Below are positions 2,269 through 31,046 of a stretch of 43,565 nt of DNA, piece by piece (the first letter of the stretch is position 1; the number at the start of each line of letters is the position of its first letter). The DNA lies in NCBI RefSeq assembly GCF_002160865.1, contig NZ_NFLJ01000026.1:1-43565 (forward strand), written 5' to 3'. This stretch comes from Massiliimicrobium timonense. Lineage in GTDB: Bacteria > Bacillota_I > Bacilli_A > Erysipelotrichales > Coprobacillaceae. The notes below the pieces were generated by a model. That model made no database searches and had not been told where the DNA came from. It worked only from the letters and a program-made list of their open reading frames with translations. The position numbers were made by a program, and so were the translations under genes.

Positions 2269-2297
2269 TTGAATGTAGAAATACAAAAATATATACT
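2269..2297 (+). promoter_or_regulatory. Sigma-A-like promoter of the orphan carB leader
   Basis: TTGAAT, 17-bp spacer, TATACT. It has the same architecture and the same -10 as the promoter in front of carAB (26603-26631). Transcription should start near 2304, giving a leader of about 158 nt. Confidence 0.75.
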
Positions 2298-2326
2298 TAT
2301 TAAAGATAAGGAAAGGAATGAGAAAA

Positions 2327-2410
2327 ATGAGAGATTTTGGTTTCAAAACAACGAATCAAATAGCTGTTTCTCCAAAGTCTTGTTTTTCTTATTTTTTATA
2401 TTTATTATAG
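2327..2410 (+). CDS. Leader peptide (27 aa) of orphan carB, U-rich at its 3' end
   Basis: The short ORF follows GGAAAGG, with a first in-frame ATG at 2318 and the better-spaced ATG at 2327. It ends in CFSYFLYLL and a TAG at 2408-2410. The last codons lie in a 21-nt tract (2383-2403) that is 17/21 T. The stop codon is followed at once by the terminator hairpin at 2411. The carAB leader has the same design, ending SFSHFLYF. AATGAGAAAAA near the start (2317-2327) can pair with TTTTTCTTATT in the U-rich tract. I infer a regulatory leader peptide. Translation is not proven, but the matching reading frame at the two loci argues for it. Confidence 0.6.
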   Translation: MRDFGFKTTNQIAVSPKSCFSYFLYLL

Positions 2411-2441
2411 GACATATCATTTGATTTGATATGTCTTTTTT
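2411..2441 (+). terminator. Attenuator hairpin upstream of orphan carB
   Basis: GACATATCA and TGATATGTC form a perfect 9-bp stem with a 7-base loop, followed by six T. It lies directly after the leader-peptide stop and 21 bases before the carB start, so it must be read through to express carB. The ACATATC/GATATGT core also occurs in the carAB attenuator. Confidence 0.8.
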
Positions 2442-2461
2442 ATGGATAAGGAGGAAAAGAT

Positions 2462-5400
2462 ATGCCAAAAAGAGAAGATGTAAACACAGTATTAGTTATT
2501 GGTTCAGGACCTATTATTATTGGTCAGGCTTGTGAATTTGATTATTCAGGAACACAGGCTTGTAAAGCATTAAGAAATTTAGGATACAAGATTGTCTTAG
2601 TCAATTCTAATCCAGCGACAATCATGACAGATCCAGAAACTGCTGATGTGACTTATATTGAACCATTGAATTTAAAAAGATTAACACAAATCATTGAAAA
2701 AGAAAGACCAGATGCCTTATTGCCTAACTTAGGTGGACAATCAGCATTAAATTTATGTGCTGAATTACATAATGCTGGTGTCTTAAATAAATACAATGTT
2801 AAAGTTTTAGGTGTTCAAGTAGATGCCATTGAACGTGGGGAAGATCGTTTAGAGTTTAAAAAAGCCATGAATGAGCTTGGTATTGATATGGCAAGAAGTG
2901 AAATTGCGAATACAGTTGATGAAGCTCTCGCAATTGCAGACAAATTAGGATACCCTGTTGTTGTAAGACCTGCTTATACAATGGGTGGTGCCGGAGGAGG
3001 ACTTGTTTATAATGTTGAAGAATTAAAAACAGTCGTTTCTCGTGGTTTACAGGCCAGTCTTGTTCATGAATGCTTGATTGAAGAATCTATTCTTGGATGG
3101 GAAGAATTAGAAGTAGAAGTTGTCAGAGATGCTAAAAACAATATGATTACTGTATGTTTCATTGAAAACATTGATCCATTAGGTGTTCATACTGGAGATT
3201 CTTTCTGTAGTGCGCCAATGTTGACAATTTCTCAAGATGTTCAAGATCGTTTAAAAGATCAGGCTTTTAGAATTGTTGAATCTATTGGTGTTATTGGGGG
3301 AACAAATGTACAGTTTGCTCACGATCCTGAAACTGATAGAATTGTTGTTATTGAAATTAACCCAAGAACATCACGTTCTAGTGCATTAGCTTCAAAAGCA
3401 ACAGGTTTCCCTATTGCCCTTGTTTCAGCTATGTTAGCTGCTGGTTTAACTTTAGATGAAATTCCATGTGGAAAATATGGAACTTTAGATAAATATGTAC
3501 CAGATGGTGACTATGTTGTTATTAAATTTGCAAGATGGGCTTTTGAAAAATTCAAAGGTGCACAGGATAAATTAGGAACACAGATGAAAGCTGTTGGAGA
3601 AGTGATGAGTATTGGTAAGAATTATAAAGAAGCTTTCCAAAAAGCCATTCGTTCTCTTGAAATTGGTCAATATGGTTTAGGATATGCTAAAAATTTCAAT
3701 GAATTAACAAAAGAACAGTTATTAGAAAAATTAACAGTTCCTACAAGTCAAAGACAATTCATCATGTATGAAGCTTTAAGAAAAGGAGCAACTGTTGAAG
3801 AATTATATGAATTAACAAGTATTAAACATTATTTTATTGAACAGATGAAAGAATTAGTTGATGAAGAAGAAATGTTAAAATCATATGCAGGGAAAGAGTT
3901 GCCAGTAGATGTTTTAAGACAAGCAAAACAAGATGGTTTCTCAGATAAATATTTAAGTCAGATTTTAAATGTTTCTGAAGATAGTATCAGAAATGAAAGA
4001 ATTGAAAATGGTATTACTCAAGCTTGGGAACCAGTTCATGTCAGTGGTACAAAAGATAGTGCCTATTACTATTCTACATATAATGCTCAAGATCATAGTG
4101 ATATTCATCATGATAAGAAAAAGATTATGATTTTAGGTGGAGGACCAAACAGAATCGGTCAAGGTATTGAATTTGATTATTGCTGTGTTCATGCTTCATT
4201 GGCTTTAAAGAAATTGGGATTTGAAACAATTATTGTCAACTGTAATCCAGAAACAGTCTCTACTGATTATGATACTTCTGATAAACTTTATTTTGAACCA
4301 TTAACATTAGAAGATGTTTTAAGTATTCATGATAAAGAAAAACCAGTGGGTGTGATTGCTCAATTTGGAGGACAAACACCATTGAACTTAGCTTCTCAGT
4401 TAAAAGCCAATGGTGTACATATCTTAGGAACAACACCTGAAACAATTGATATGGCAGAAGATAGAGATTTATTCAATGAAATGATGGAAAAATTAAATAT
4501 TCCTATGCCAGAATCAGGAATGGCTGTCAATGTTGAAGAAGCTTTAGAAATCGCTAAAAGAATTGGTTATCCATTAATGGTAAGACCTTCTTATGTCTTA
4601 GGTGGACGTGGAATGGAAGTTGTTTATGATGATGACAGCTTAAAACAATATATGGCTGCGGCTGTTGGTGTGACACCAGATCGTCCAATCTTAATTGACA
4701 GATTCTTAAATAATGCAATGGAATGTGAAGCAGATGCTATTAGTGATGGAACAAATGTTTTCGTTCCAGCTGTTATGGAACATATCGAATTAGCTGGTAT
4801 TCACTCTGGAGATTCAGCATGTATCTTACCTTCTAAACATATTCCAATGAGACATTTAGAAACAATCAAAGAATATACAAAGAAAATCGCGAAAGAAATG
4901 AATGTTCGTGGACTTATGAACATGCAATATGCGATTGCTGATGATAAAGTTTATGTTCTTGAGGCCAACCCAAGAGCTTCACGTACAGTACCTTTAGTAT
5001 CAAAAGTATGTAATGTTAATATGGTGAAGATTGCAACTGATATTGTGACAATGGAATTAACTGGTAGAGAATCACCAGTACCAAAATTAACTGAAAAGAA
5101 AATTCCACATGTTGGTGTTAAACAAGCTGTATTCCCATTCAATATGTTCCCAGAAGTTGACCCAATCTTAGGACCAGAAATGAGATCAACAGGAGAAGTG
5201 TTAGGATTAGGAAGTTCATTTGGAGCAGCTATCTATAAAGCTGAAGAAGCGACACAAACAATCTTACCAACTGAAGGAAAAATATTGATCAGTGTTAACG
5301 ATATGGACAAACCACAAGTTGTTGAACTTGCTAAAGGATACTATGATGCAGGATTTACAATTGTAGCGACTGGAAATACATATGCTTTAATTCAAGAAGC

Positions 5401-5680
5401 AGGTGTACCAGTTGAAAAAATTAAGAAATTAAATGAAGGACGTCCAAACATTACAGATGCCCTTACAAATGGTGAACTTGCTATGGTGATCAATACACCT
5501 CATGGTAAGCAAAGTGCTCATGATGATAGTTATATCAGAAAAACAGCAATTAAGATGAGAATTCCATATATGACAAACATTGCTGCAGCGAAAGCTGCAC
5601 TAGAAGGAATTATGGAAATGAAGATTCATGGTAGTCATGCAGTGAAATCCTTACAAGAATATCATAGTGAAATTCAATAA
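2462..5680 (+). CDS. carB: Carbamoyl-phosphate synthase large subunit (orphan copy)
   Basis: The large synthetase subunit makes carbamoyl phosphate from bicarbonate, two ATP and ammonia delivered by CarA. At 1072 residues it has the full family length. The two ATP-grasp halves begin with [17 protein letters not shown] (about residue 14) and [16 protein letters not shown] (about 561), and the ATP loops read PAYTMGGAGGG and PSYVLGGRGME. The C-terminal allosteric (MGS-like) domain is close to the E. coli pattern, with ATGNT, KKLNEGRP and INTPHG, and ends SLQEYHSEI. No carA is adjacent, so it presumably uses the CarA made 24 kb away. AAGGAGG sits 7-8 bases before the start. A second, more divergent carB lies at 27852-31046. 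Confidence 0.96.
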   Translation: MPKREDVNTVLVIGSGPIIIGQACEFDYSGTQACKALRNLGYKIVLVNSNPATIMTDPETADVTYIEPLNLKRLTQIIEKERPDALLPNLGGQSALNLCAELHNAGVLNKYNVKVLGVQVDAIERGEDRLEFKKAMNELGIDMARSEIANTVDEALAIADKLGYPVVVRPAYTMGGAGGGLVYNVEELKTVVSRGLQASLVHECLIEESILGWEELEVEVVRDAKNNMITVCFIENIDPLGVHTGDSFCSAPMLTISQDVQDRLKDQAFRIVESIGVIGGTNVQFAHDPETDRIVVIEINPRTSRSSALASKATGFPIALVSAMLAAGLTLDEIPCGKYGTLDKYVPDGDYVVIKFARWAFEKFKGAQDKLGTQMKAVGEVMSIGKNYKEAFQKAIRSLEIGQYGLGYAKNFNELTKEQLLEKLTVPTSQRQFIMYEALRKGATVEELYELTSIKHYFIEQMKELVDEEEMLKSYAGKELPVDVLRQAKQDGFSDKYLSQILNVSEDSIRNERIENGITQAWEPVHVSGTKDSAYYYSTYNAQDHSDIHHDKKKIMILGGGPNRIGQGIEFDYCCVHASLALKKLGFETIIVNCNPETVSTDYDTSDKLYFEPLTLEDVLSIHDKEKPVGVIAQFGGQTPLNLASQLKANGVHILGTTPETIDMAEDRDLFNEMMEKLNIPMPESGMAVNVEEALEIAKRIGYPLMVRPSYVLGGRGMEVVYDDDSLKQYMAAAVGVTPDRPILIDRFLNNAMECEADAISDGTNVFVPAVMEHIELAGIHSGDSACILPSKHIPMRHLETIKEYTKKIAKEMNVRGLMNMQYAIADDKVYVLEANPRASRTVPLVSKVCNVNMVKIATDIVTMELTGRESPVPKLTEKKIPHVGVKQAVFPFNMFPEVDPILGPEMRSTGEVLGLGSSFGAAIYKAEEATQTILPTEGKILISVNDMDKPQVVELAKGYYDAGFTIVATGNTYALIQEAGVPVEKIKKLNEGRPNITDALTNGELAMVINTPHGKQSAHDDSYIRKTAIKMRIPYMTNIAAAKAALEGIMEMKIHGSHAVKSLQEYHSEIQ

Positions 5681-15182: not shown

Positions 15183-15222
15183 ATGATAAAAAATCATTGA
15201 CAAAAATGATTCGCTGTATCAT
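15183..15222 (+). promoter_or_regulatory. Alternating ATGAT/ATCAT half-sites over the glnN promoter
   Basis: ATGAT (15183), ATCAT (15193), ATGAT (15206) and ATCAT (15218) form two inverted pairs with 5- and 7-base gaps. They cover the region upstream of the -35, the -35 and the -10. This does not match the GlnR or TnrA box (TGTNA-N7-TNACA). Possible operator; AT-rich chance is not excluded. Confidence 0.35.
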
Positions 15223-26554: not shown

Positions 26555-26602
26555 TGATTAATAATTTAAAATTATGATAATAAAAAATTATGAAAAAATA
26601 TC

Positions 26603-26631
26603 TTGATAATTATGTTAAATTTGACTATACT
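26603..26631 (+). promoter_or_regulatory. Sigma-A promoter of the carAB leader
   Basis: TTGATA, 17-bp spacer, TATACT. Start near 26638. It gives carAB its own transcript, separate from the nitrogen operon. Confidence 0.75.
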
Positions 26632-26662
26632 ATACAAGAATAAATAGAAAGGAATGAGAATT

Positions 26663-26731
26663 ATGGTGGGAAAACAAGTTATGGATACAACGATTGTTAG
26701 AACATCTTTTTCTCATTTTTTATATTTCTAA
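26663..26731 (+). CDS. Leader peptide (22 aa) of carAB, U-rich at its 3' end
   Basis: GAAAGG precedes two in-frame ATGs 9 bases apart (26654 and 26663), the same arrangement as in the orphan carB leader. The peptide ends TSFSHFLYF. Its last codons lie in a T-rich 21-nt tract (26707-26727) that differs at only one base from the other leader. The TAA (26729-26731) touches the attenuator stem. AATGAGAA at the start can pair with TTCTCATT in the tract. Leader-peptide function is inferred from this conservation. Confidence 0.6.
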   Translation: MVGKQVMDTTIVRTSFSHFLYF

Positions 26732-26760
26732 AAACATATCTTTTATGGATATGTTTTTTT
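26731..26760 (+). terminator. Attenuator hairpin upstream of carAB
   Basis: AAACATATC and GATATGTTT form a 9-bp stem with a 7-base loop, then a T run. It lies between the leader peptide stop and the carA ribosome site. The core ACATATC/GATATGT is identical to that at 2413-2434. Confidence 0.8.
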
Positions 26761-26779
26761 ATGATATAAGGAGGTAACA

Positions 26780-27859
26780 ATGAAAGCATATTTGATATTA
26801 GAAGATGGACATGTCTTTGAAGGTGAACATTTTGGTGGTCATAAGGAAGTCATTAGTGAGTTTGTCTTTAATACATCTATGACAGGATATCTGGAAGTCT
26901 TAACAGATCCTTCATATGCTGGACAAAGTGTTGTGATGACTTATCCATTGATTGGAAATTACGGTGTTTGTTTGGAAGATCAAGAATCAAGACAACCATA
27001 TGTAGAAGGTTTTGTTGTGAATGAACTGGCAAGATTAGGCAGTCATTTTAGAAAGAATATGGATTTAGAAGAATATTTAAAACAGCATGATATTGTAGGT
27101 ATTCAAGGTGTTGATACACGTTATATTACAAAGTTAATCAGAAATAAAGGTTGTATGAATGGTTTGATTACAACACATCACTATGATGATTTAAGTGATG
27201 TTTTAAAACGAATTCATGAGTATAAAGTTTCTGGTGTTGTGAAACAAACAACATGCTGTGAACCTTATGTTTTAGGAAAGGGTGCATATAAAGTCGCTTT
27301 ATATGATTTTGGAGCAAAGCAAAATATTGCCAGAGAACTAGTCAAAAGAAATTGTGAAGTGACAGTTTTCCCAGCTGATACACCAGCAAAGACCATTTTA
27401 GAAGGACACTTTGATGGAATTATGCTTTCAAATGGTCCTGGTGATCCTGAAGAATGTGTAGATATTATTGAAAATATGAAGATTTTAAGTCAAAGTGGTT
27501 TGCCTATTTTTGCTATCTGTTTAGGACATCAGTTAATGGCTTTAGCACATGGTTTTCAAACAGAAAAGATGGTTTACGGTCATCATGGTGCCAACCACCC
27601 TGTTAAGGATTTGAAAACAAATCGTGTTTATATTTCAACACAAAATCATAATTATGTTGTCAAAGAAGAATCATTGGATAGCCAAGTGGCAAAAATATGG
27701 TTCCAGAACGTCAATGATGGAACATTGGAAGGCATTGAATATTTACAGGAACCTATTAAAACAGTGCAGTTCCATCCAGAAGCATGTGCTGGACCATTAG
27801 ATACATCATATTTATTTGACGAATTTATCAAAATGATGGGAGGAAATCAAAATGCCTAG
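26780..27859 (+). CDS. carA: Carbamoyl-phosphate synthase small subunit
   Basis: Glutaminase subunit that supplies ammonia to CarB. The 359 residues have the N-terminal CarA domain ([18 protein letters not shown]) and a class I amidotransferase domain with catalytic Cys in [11 protein letters not shown] (about residue 246) and His/Glu in [10 protein letters not shown] (about 335). AAGGAGG gives the start. Its last 8 bases overlap carB, so the two are translationally coupled. It is the only carA in the window and may have to serve both CarB proteins. Confidence 0.96.
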
Positions 27860-30800
27860 AAATCATGATATTCAAAAAGTATTAGTGATTGGATCTGGAC
27901 CAATTATCATTGGGCAGGCAGCAGAGTTTGACTATGCTGGAACACAGGCTTGTAGAGCCTTGAAAGAAGAAGGAATAGAAGTTGTCCTTATTAATTCTAA
28001 CCCAGCCACAATCATGACAGATAAAGATATTGCTGATAAGGTTTATATAGAACCATTAACTGTACCAGTTGTGAAACATTTAATTGAAGTTGAAAAACCA
28101 GATAGCATTTTACCGACACTTGGGGGACAAAATGCTTTAAATATTGCGATGGCTTTAGCTGATGAAGGATTTTTAGACAAACATCATGTGCGTACTATTG
28201 GAACTTCAACAGATACAATCAAACTGGCTGAAGATCGCTTAGAGTTTAAAACATTAATGGAAAAGATTGGAGAACCATGTGCAGCATCAATTGTTGTAAA
28301 TCATGTAGATGAAGCCATTGAGTTTGCAAATAAAATTGGTTATCCAGTTGTTGTTAGACCAGCATATACATTAGGAGGAACAGGTGGCGGAATTGCCAAT
28401 AATGAAGAAGAACTTCATCATATCTGTTCTAATGGATTACGTTTATCACGTGTGAGTCAGTGCCTCATTGAAAAAAGTATTGCCGGATGGAAAGAAATTG
28501 AATATGAAGTGATGCGTGATGGACATGGCAACTGTATTACAGTATGTAATATGGAAAATTTAGATCCAGTTGGTGTACATACGGGAGATAGTATTGTTGT
28601 GGCACCAAGTCAAACTTTATCTGATAAAGAATATCAGATGTTAAGAAGTTCGGCTTTAAATATTATTACAGCCTTAAATATTCAAGGTGGATGTAATGTG
28701 CAGTATGCTTTAAATCCAGATAGTTTTGAATATTGTGTCATTGAAGTTAATCCACGTGTTTCGCGTTCTTCAGCTTTAGCTTCAAAAGCAACAGGTTATC
28801 CAATCGCCAAACTGGCAGCGAAAATTGCTTTAGGTTATACATTGGATGAAATTAAAAATGCAGTTACTGGAAAAACATATGCTTCTTATGAACCGACGTT
28901 AGATTATATTGTTTGTAAGATTCCAAAATGGCCATTCGATAAATTTGTTGGGGCATCTAGAAAACTAGGAACACAAATGAAAGCAACAGGAGAAGTCATG
29001 AGTATTGCTCATAATTTTGAAGGGGCTTTTATGAAAGCTTTACGTTCCTTAGAACAAAATGTTTATGATTTACATATTCCTGAAGTTGATGGTTTATCAT
29101 TAGATGAATTAAGAGTGAAATTAAAAGATGTTGATGATCATCGTATCTTTGTAGTGGCAGAAGCTTTAAGACAGGGAATGAGTGAACAGGAAATTCATGA
29201 TATAACACGTATTGATTGCTGGTTTATTGATAAAATCAAACATTTAACAGAAGTCGAACAACAATTAAAAACAGAACCACTGACTGTTGAATTATTAAAA
29301 CTTGCGAAAAGATTAGAATTCCCTGATCAAATTATTGCTAAGTATACAAATCATACAACGCAAGATATTCATCAAATGAGATTAGATCATCATATTGAAG
29401 CTGTTTATAAAACAGTAGATACATGTGCAGCTGAATTTGATGCAACAACACCTTATTATTATTCTGTATATGGAGAACATAATGAAGTTGATCCTCGTGA
29501 TGATAAAAAGAAAATCATGGTTTTAGGTTCAGGACCAATCCGTATTGGACAAGGGATAGAGTTTGATTACTGTTCTGTTCATTGTGTCTGGGCTTTAAAA
29601 GAAGCAGGATATGATACAATCATCGTCAACAACAACCCAGAAACAGTGTCTACAGACTTTGATATTGCTGATCGTTTATACTTTGAACCATTAACACCTG
29701 AAGATGTCGAAAGTATTGTACGTTTAGAAAAACCAGACGGAGCCATTGTACAATTTGGTGGACAAACAGCCATCAAGCTTACAAAAGCCTTAATGGAAAT
29801 GGGAGTTCCTATTTTAGGAACATCAGCTGATAATGTCGATGCTGCTGAAGATCGTGAAAGATTTGATGAAATCTTACAGCGTTGTGATATAGATCGTCCA
29901 AGAGGTTCAACAGTTTTTACAACAGAAGAAGCTTTAGAGGTTGCTAATCGTTTAGGATATCCAGTGCTTGTCAGACCTTCTTATGTATTAGGTGGAGCTG
30001 GAATGGAAATTGCTTTAAATGATGGTGATATCAAGAAATTCATGGAAATCATTAATCGTCAATATCAGGAACATCCTATCTTGATTGATAAATATTTATC
30101 TGGTAAAGAAGTTGAAGTCGATGCTATCTGTGATGAACATGGTGTATTGATTCCAGGTATCATGGAACACGTAGAACGTGCAGGAGTGCATAGTGGAGAT
30201 AGTATCTCAGTATATCCACCACAAAAGATTAAACAGGAAATTAAAGATGTGATTGTGGATTATACACAAAGACTAGCAAAAGCGCTACATGTCATTGGTT
30301 TAATTAATATTCAATTTATTGTTTATGAAGATCAGGTATATGTCATTGAAGTGAATCCACGTTCTTCACGTACTATTCCTTATATTTCAAAAGTGACTGA
30401 TATTCCAGTAGTAGATGTGGCTACACATGTCATTATGGGAAAAACAATCAAGGAACAAGGTTATGAATATGGATTGGCTAAGGAAAAAGAAACAGTGGCA
30501 ATTAAAATGCCAGTCTTCTCTTTTGAAAAGATTACTGGTGCTGAAATTAGCTTAGGACCAGAAATGAAATCTACAGGTGAAGTTTTAGGTGTGTCTAAAG
30601 ACTTTGATGAAGCGATATATAAAGCATTCATTGCGACAGGTATTGATTTACCTAAGAAAAAGAATATTATCTGTACTATTAAAGATAGTGCTAAAGATGA
30701 ATTCTTACCAATTGCAAAACAATATCATAAGTTTGGTTATGATATCTATGCAACAATTGGAACATTCACATATTTAATCGAACATGGTGTTCCAGCACAT

Positions 30801-31046
30801 TTGGTGAATTACATTGCAGATAAGAAAAATACAATCTTTGATTTAATGTTGACAGATACAGTTGATTTAATTATTGATATACCAACAAGAAACAATAATT
30901 TAAAAGATGGATTTATGATTCGTCGTTTTGCAGTAGAAGCTGGTATTCCTATTTATACATCATTAGATACAGCACAGGCATTAATCAATTGTCTTGAAAA
31001 AAGACATCAAGGAAATACATCACTTATTGATATTACAAAAATTTAA
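27852..31046 (+). CDS. carB: Carbamoyl-phosphate synthase large subunit (carAB copy)
   Basis: Full-length CarB (1064 aa) with both ATP-grasp halves: [17 protein letters not shown] near residue 14, [27 protein letters not shown] near 560 and [11 protein letters not shown]. It overlaps carA by 8 bases. The C-terminal allosteric domain (about 930 on) is more divergent than in the orphan copy. The EGRP block is replaced by ADKKNTIFD, and the INT segment seen in UMP-regulated enzymes is replaced by IDIPTRN. It may therefore respond to a different effector, or to none. That comparison is by eye against the E. coli enzyme. Confidence 0.95.

Follow-up and report, generated by a model that had tools for sequence, protein, structure and literature searches.

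The two carbamoyl-phosphate synthase loci of the window (the whole stretch of DNA analysed, 43,565 nucleotides) are probably controlled by translation-dependent transcription attenuators resembling that of E. coli pyrBI, in which a U-rich tract of the leader acts as an anti-Shine-Dalgarno sequence and possibly also as a sensor of UTP through the speed of RNA polymerase. Sequence comparison within the family has shown a conserved leader ORF, a stop codon set at an intrinsic terminator, a helix (P1) formed between the tract and the ribosome-binding site (RBS), and the same target genes; from these we infer co-transcriptional competition, blocking of the terminator by the ribosome, and UTP as the signal. 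Leaders 1 and 2 lie 24 kb apart with their parts in the same order (sigma-70-like promoter, SD-preceded ORF, U-rich tract, stop codon, terminator, gene), as follows in window positions.

2269-2297, + strand: promoter of leader 1, TTGAAT-17-TATACT, read from the sequence (-35 at 2269-2274, 17 nt, -10 at 2292-2297)
2305-2340, + strand: 5' arm of helix P1 of leader 1, spanning 5' UTR, SD, start codon and first codons
2312-2317, + strand: Shine-Dalgarno sequence (SD) of leader ORF 1, AAAGGA, inside helix P1
2327-2410, + strand: leader ORF 1, 27 codons, MRDFGFKTTNQIAVSPKSCFSYFLYLL (coding 2327-2407; TAG at 2408-2410, at the terminator base)
2372-2406, + strand: 3' arm of helix P1 of leader 1, the U-rich tract (core 2383-2403)
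2411-2441, + strand: intrinsic terminator of leader 1, GACATATCA-loop-TGATATGTC and U6
2462-5680, + strand: stand-alone carB, 1072 aa, the putative controlled gene (NCBIfam NF003671 and TIGR01369 over cut-off)
26603-26631, + strand: promoter of leader 2, TTGATA-17-TATACT (-35 at 26603-26608, 17 nt, -10 at 26626-26631)
26642-26660, + strand: 5' arm of helix P1 of leader 2, including the SD and pairing with 26710-26727
26649-26653, + strand: SD of leader ORF 2, AAGGA
26663-26731, + strand: leader ORF 2, 22 codons, MVGKQVMDTTIVRTSFSHFLYF (coding 26663-26728; TAA at 26729-26731, at the terminator base)
26707-26727, + strand: U-rich tract and P1 3' arm of leader 2, TTTTTCTCATTTTTTATATTT, 16/21 U
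26734-26761, + strand: intrinsic terminator of leader 2, ACATATC-loop-GATATGT and U7 (core 26734-26740 / 26748-26754)
26780-31046, + strand: carA (26780-27859) and carB (27852-31046), the putative controlled operon (NCBIfam NF009475, TIGR01368 and NF003671 over cut-off)

Transcription of leader 1 is expected from the sequence to start at about 2304. Both leaders carry two ATG codons spaced 9 nt apart (2318 and 2327; 26654 and 26663). The tract of leader 1, TTTTTCTTATTTTTTATATTT (2383-2403), has U at 17 of its 21 positions, and TTTTTCTCATTTTTTATATTT differs from it at one base. The leader 1 terminator has a 9-bp stem (2411-2419 / 2427-2435) followed by six U (2436-2441). In the MFE fold of leader 1, helix P1 consists of 2305-2310/2401-2406 and 2313-2340/2372-2397 (26+6 pairs, start codon included), and the predicted fold of leader 2 has a P1 of 17 pairs with the SD included. 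The first-pass annotation had listed the promoter, 27-codon ORF, 17/21 U tract, stop codon, 9-bp stem and six U of leader 1, all of which are present where it placed them, and had observed correctly that the carAB leader repeats this layout, with a one-base tract difference, ATGs 9 nt apart and the hairpin core ACATATC/GATATGT; its description of parts was accurate wherever checked. It had spoken of two carB loci, and a leader does stand at both, but the gene behind copy 1 is a stand-alone carB, and copy 2 is followed by carA-carB. The two carB paralogues of the window (2462-5680 and 27852-31046) are 46% identical; the stand-alone carB, with no adjacent carA here, shows 84-99% identity in most genera having one. 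A palindrome, ATAATAAAAAATTAT, lies at 26577-26591, just 5' of the carA -35 box, and recurs in many carA promoters of the family, and a match to it, ATGATAAAAAATCAT (15183-15197), lies upstream of a glutamine synthetase gene. These palindromes are possibly the operator of a nitrogen regulator; the motif count in the window alone is not above chance.

The distribution of the leader was followed in 43 genomes of the family from 20 genera, including the window's own genome (G000; 2.78 Mb, assembly 99.6% complete). A covariance model built from 22 leaders, a search of relatives proposed at the outset, recovered 67 copies at E<=0.0021 in 42/43 genomes and 19/20 genera, the 22 leaders having served as training set. 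All 67 matches lie directly upstream of carA or a stand-alone carB, with noise below them, and the coupling of a leader ORF to a terminator that had been suggested for the two loci was recovered at both and family-wide. Across the whole 2.78-Mb genome just the two leaders match the tract motif with fewer than three mismatches, and the reversed terminator pattern, used as a control, gave 0 matches across the 43 genomes. As in pyrBI-type attenuators, an intrinsic terminator separates the leader from the structural gene. The leader element was absent from the pyrB upstream regions of the family, and the pyrBCKD operon of the window's genome, located elsewhere, stands without it, so that the element does not mark a general pyrimidine regulon. 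In several genera the leader just upstream of pyrB is of another attenuator-like kind, its repeats being mutually exclusive (L141, L142, L144, L145, L147, L148 and L151), for example GGTATAT ... AATATACC ... GGTATATTTTTTT. The terminator stem ACATATCA/TGATATGT is nearly invariant across genera and in both gene contexts, beyond what a terminator needs, with exceptions that retain pairing in G024 and G029. The carA leader of G001 has no stop codon before carA; an assembly error is likely there, because frame breaks interrupt the second carB of this genome.

The U-rich tract is complementary to the SD-spacer-start region of its own leader ORF, forming the helix P1 that the earlier reading missed. 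RNAalifold, applied to four separate alignments, returned P1 and the terminator each time (z -5 to -21), and P1 in the 22-sequence alignment comprises 19 pairs, 6 of them with two-sided changes. Clear compensations were found in G024 (UUGUGA/UCACAA), G026 (GAAAGGG/CCCUUUC) and G037 (AGGCU/AGCCU). When each leader's own RBS-tract pair was compared with pairs swapped between genera in 23 genus x gene clusters, the own pairs were the better ones, with a mean rank of 0.195 (p=2.6e-5), against 0.527 (p=0.69) for a mid-ORF control; because the clusters share ancestry, such p-values make the evidence look somewhat stronger than it is. Own tracts also paired better than their shuffles (p=1.3e-5). These comparisons make P1 a well-supported conserved, covarying helix.

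In the sister family, 20 carA upstream regions were read by eye and then 40 more. Most carA genes there lie within operons and have no leader; a scan of these ~60 regions for a terminator close to carA left five. Four of these (G101, G174, G070 and G095) have an SD-preceded ORF with its stop codon at the stem and unrelated terminator sequences, and no such ORF was found in the fifth, G097. Compared with shuffles, P1 is not significant in any of the four taken singly (p 0.11-0.22). The carA leader of G095 (L281) combines the stop-at-terminator geometry with a tract of 29% U and three Arg codons; judged by its sequence, it genuinely departs from a purely UTP-based model and may have switched signal. 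A class-wide search with the covariance model gave matches in three non-family genomes, before carA just in G070. The carA genes of Lachnospiraceae (protein ~60% identical) have other leaders, among which L206, L207, L211 and L222 share the element ATTTG(A/G)G ... CTTTTTTTTTGAG.

Under the mechanism proposed for the family leaders, a tract made while no ribosome has loaded would pair with the SD and start region as P1 and close the RBS; the leader would remain untranslated, the adjoining terminator would fold, and transcription would stop. A slow polymerase would allow a ribosome to load before P1 closes. Low UTP would slow the polymerase in the tract that forms the 3' arm of P1, since U is concentrated there, and so give the ribosome time. 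The ribosome would then trail the polymerase as far as the stop codon, where it would cover the 5' arm of the terminator, and carB or carAB would be transcribed. In B. subtilis the ribosomes fall behind the polymerase, and if the same is true of these Bacillota, coupling of the pyrBI type would be weakened. PMC4824070 describes the suppression by trailing ribosomes of terminators close behind a stop codon, and the escape from it of amino-acid attenuators, in which the stop lies >20 bp from the terminator; the stop-terminator distance of about zero found here fits what a ribosome-blocking design needs. The logic of pyrBI attenuation is described in PMC3641672.

The first-pass annotation had taken the U-richness of the tract as evidence of UTP sensing. 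The tract is indeed U-rich (65% U at -30 to -15 from the stem, 58% at -15 to 0), but base pairing to the SD and start region largely accounts for this, the U content being 65% where the tract is paired, 44% where it is unpaired and 32% in mid-ORF. U-richness is therefore weaker evidence of UTP sensing than it first seemed. The G's of the SD lie opposite U in 19/22 leaders of the model alignment, and their facing U rather than C suggests a preference for U that would not be expected from selection for stronger pairing alone. UTP would still be the signal we favour, and what counts against a UTP attenuator, as read from the sequences, is that U-richness is largely a matter of pairing, that G095 departs from it, and that pyrBCKD lacks the element. 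The principal alternative retains the attenuator and changes the signal: P1 would be the switch, responding to a small RNA, to a trans-acting protein or to the overall capacity for initiation, and the tract would serve only as an anti-SD. We consider this rather unlikely, although a serious contender: P1 is the best-supported conserved feature, the unpaired tract positions are only modestly enriched in U (44% vs 32%), and G095 retains the architecture without a U-rich tract. Set against it are the compensated variation of the helix sequence, of a kind that a specific protein site would limit, the U rather than C opposite the SD G's in those 19/22 leaders, and the role of carbamoyl phosphate as a pyrimidine precursor in genomes that are PyrR-less.

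With the start codon picked by SD spacing alone, blind to the stop, 67/67 leader ORFs reach the terminator, six upstream regions without a terminator match or an SD-spaced ATG having been left out. By chance, a shuffled ORF body would be open in a median of 17% of trials per leader; the two alternative frames are open in 8/61 and 7/61 leaders. Most leaders have their stop codon no more than a few bases from the base of the stem, while a minority of ORFs extend into the terminator or past it, as in pyrL. The conserved RNA motif CTYATTTTT falls in frame 0, 1 or 2 according to genus, and neither a conserved leader peptide nor a conserved codon or regulatory codon run was found among the family leaders. 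Reading of this motif in three frames argues for selection on a frame that delivers the ribosome to the terminator and not on the peptide, and the leader reading frame is, on this comparative evidence, under selection. The contrast of frame with RNA conservation raised by the earlier annotation is answered in this way: the frame is selected and the RNA motif kept, the peptide not.

These observations bear on two further alternatives. Codon-specific leader-peptide attenuation by an amino acid, for example arginine or phenylalanine, could draw on the abundance of Phe, Tyr, Leu and Ser codons at the C-termini and on the supply of arginine synthesis by carAB, but is improbable given that an Arg codon, in any number, is present in just 15/61 leaders, that all three frames are used to read the U-tract, that the stop codon abuts the terminator instead of lying >20 bp away as PMC4824070 gives for amino-acid attenuators, and that the consensus folds contain P1 and the terminator with no conserved antiterminator helix. 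A TnaC-like arrest of the nascent peptide at the stop codon, holding the ribosome over the terminator, is less probable again: it would account for the fixed position of the stop near the terminator base, but peptides and even frames are not conserved, and arrest by the end product would turn synthesis on, which is the wrong direction. Both Arg- or Phe-codon attenuation and an arrest peptide were rejected on the frame and codon analysis.

Attenuation of the PyrR, riboswitch or T-box type is typical of Bacillota. PyrR scored over cut-off in only 1/43 family genomes, not that of the window, whose best match reached 43 bits against a cut-off of 138 bits and is hpt, beside tilS; an Rfam scan of the leaders gave no PyrR site or other relevant element even at E<=5. 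With 42/43 genomes lacking a PyrR over cut-off, control of this type is hardly conceivable, and in the window's genome PyrR control is ruled out by the missing protein, so far as an assembly 99.6% complete can tell, as the earlier claims of control without PyrR and of no PyrR loop, T-box or riboswitch had anticipated. Since no PyrR over cut-off occurs in this genome, some other pyrimidine control is to be expected. A constitutive partial terminator behind a spurious ORF, which an AT-rich genome with common U-runs might suggest, has next to no likelihood and is refuted by conservation, with 67/67 ORFs open against ~17% expected per leader, control frames open in 7-8/61, and the element found just before two gene types.

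The attenuator favoured here resembles E. coli pyrBI in having an SD-preceded leader ORF that reaches the terminator, a U-rich tract immediately ahead of an intrinsic terminator, and pyrimidine genes downstream. In E. coli pyrBI, leader translation suppresses termination (PMC3641672, PMC5021804). Differences were also observed, as pyrL (44 codons) runs through the terminator, whereas a terminator inside the leader ORF is not the arrangement here, the stop lying mostly at the stem base; pyrL carries an internal GCGUCU/AGACGC hairpin, its peptide shares no evident sequence with the leaders described here, and the target genes are pyrBI in E. coli and carA/carB here. The UTP response is established for E. 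coli pyrBI only. Attenuators of the trp/his/phe type, for which the hisL and trpL pause hairpins are established (PMC9291695), likewise form a leader helix when untranslated, leaving the terminator free; unlike them, the leaders here have no regulatory codon run and no competing antiterminator in consensus folds, the SD is itself part of the helix, and the stop codon directly adjoins the terminator. The PyrR-dependent attenuators of Bacillota also control pyrimidine genes through an intrinsic leader terminator, but the leaders here occur without PyrR over cut-off in 42/43 genomes and without an Rfam PyrR site. In E. coli carAB, the same genes are controlled and UTP acts on the P1 promoter; regulation there relies on reiterative initiation and on DNA-binding factors, with no leader-ORF attenuator (PMC6245113).

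Pairing between SD and tract was also seen in predicted folds of pyrBI-type leaders of Proteobacteria and Fusobacteriota, which were taken from chromosomes and large replicons of a plasmid collection. In E. coli K-12 pyrL (L338 3400-3534) the SD CGGGAGGA pairs with UCUUCCCG in the U-rich tract, and such pairing occurs in Klebsiella, Proteus, Photobacterium and Ilyobacter (Fusobacteriota) (L339, L340, L341, L344). Against shuffled tracts, six pyrBI-type leaders including Aeromonas gave a combined p=0.0025, although most fall short of significance when taken singly and the enteric leaders are not independent of one another. No mention of SD-U tract pairing in pyrBI leaders was found in the open-access literature available in part, a scope outside which the original pyrBI papers lie.

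The extra helix P1 may be general. We tentatively suggest, as a possibility that could well prove wrong, that RBS-tract pairing forms a general second half, hitherto unnoted, of leader-ORF attenuation in pyrimidine genes, with the tract acting as both UTP speed sensor and anti-SD in Bacillota carA/carB, enterobacterial pyrBI and Fusobacteriota pyrB alike. If so, slow transcription would keep the leader translatable and fast transcription would close it, and the U-rich tract would have a testable reason, the closing of the leader's own RBS; were this true for E. coli pyrBI, the textbook mechanism would gain a missing step. For the family, a pyrBI-like attenuator, usually taught as enterobacterial, would be placed in PyrR-less Gram-positive gut bacteria, where it would control the enzyme through which carbon and nitrogen become committed to pyrimidines and arginine.
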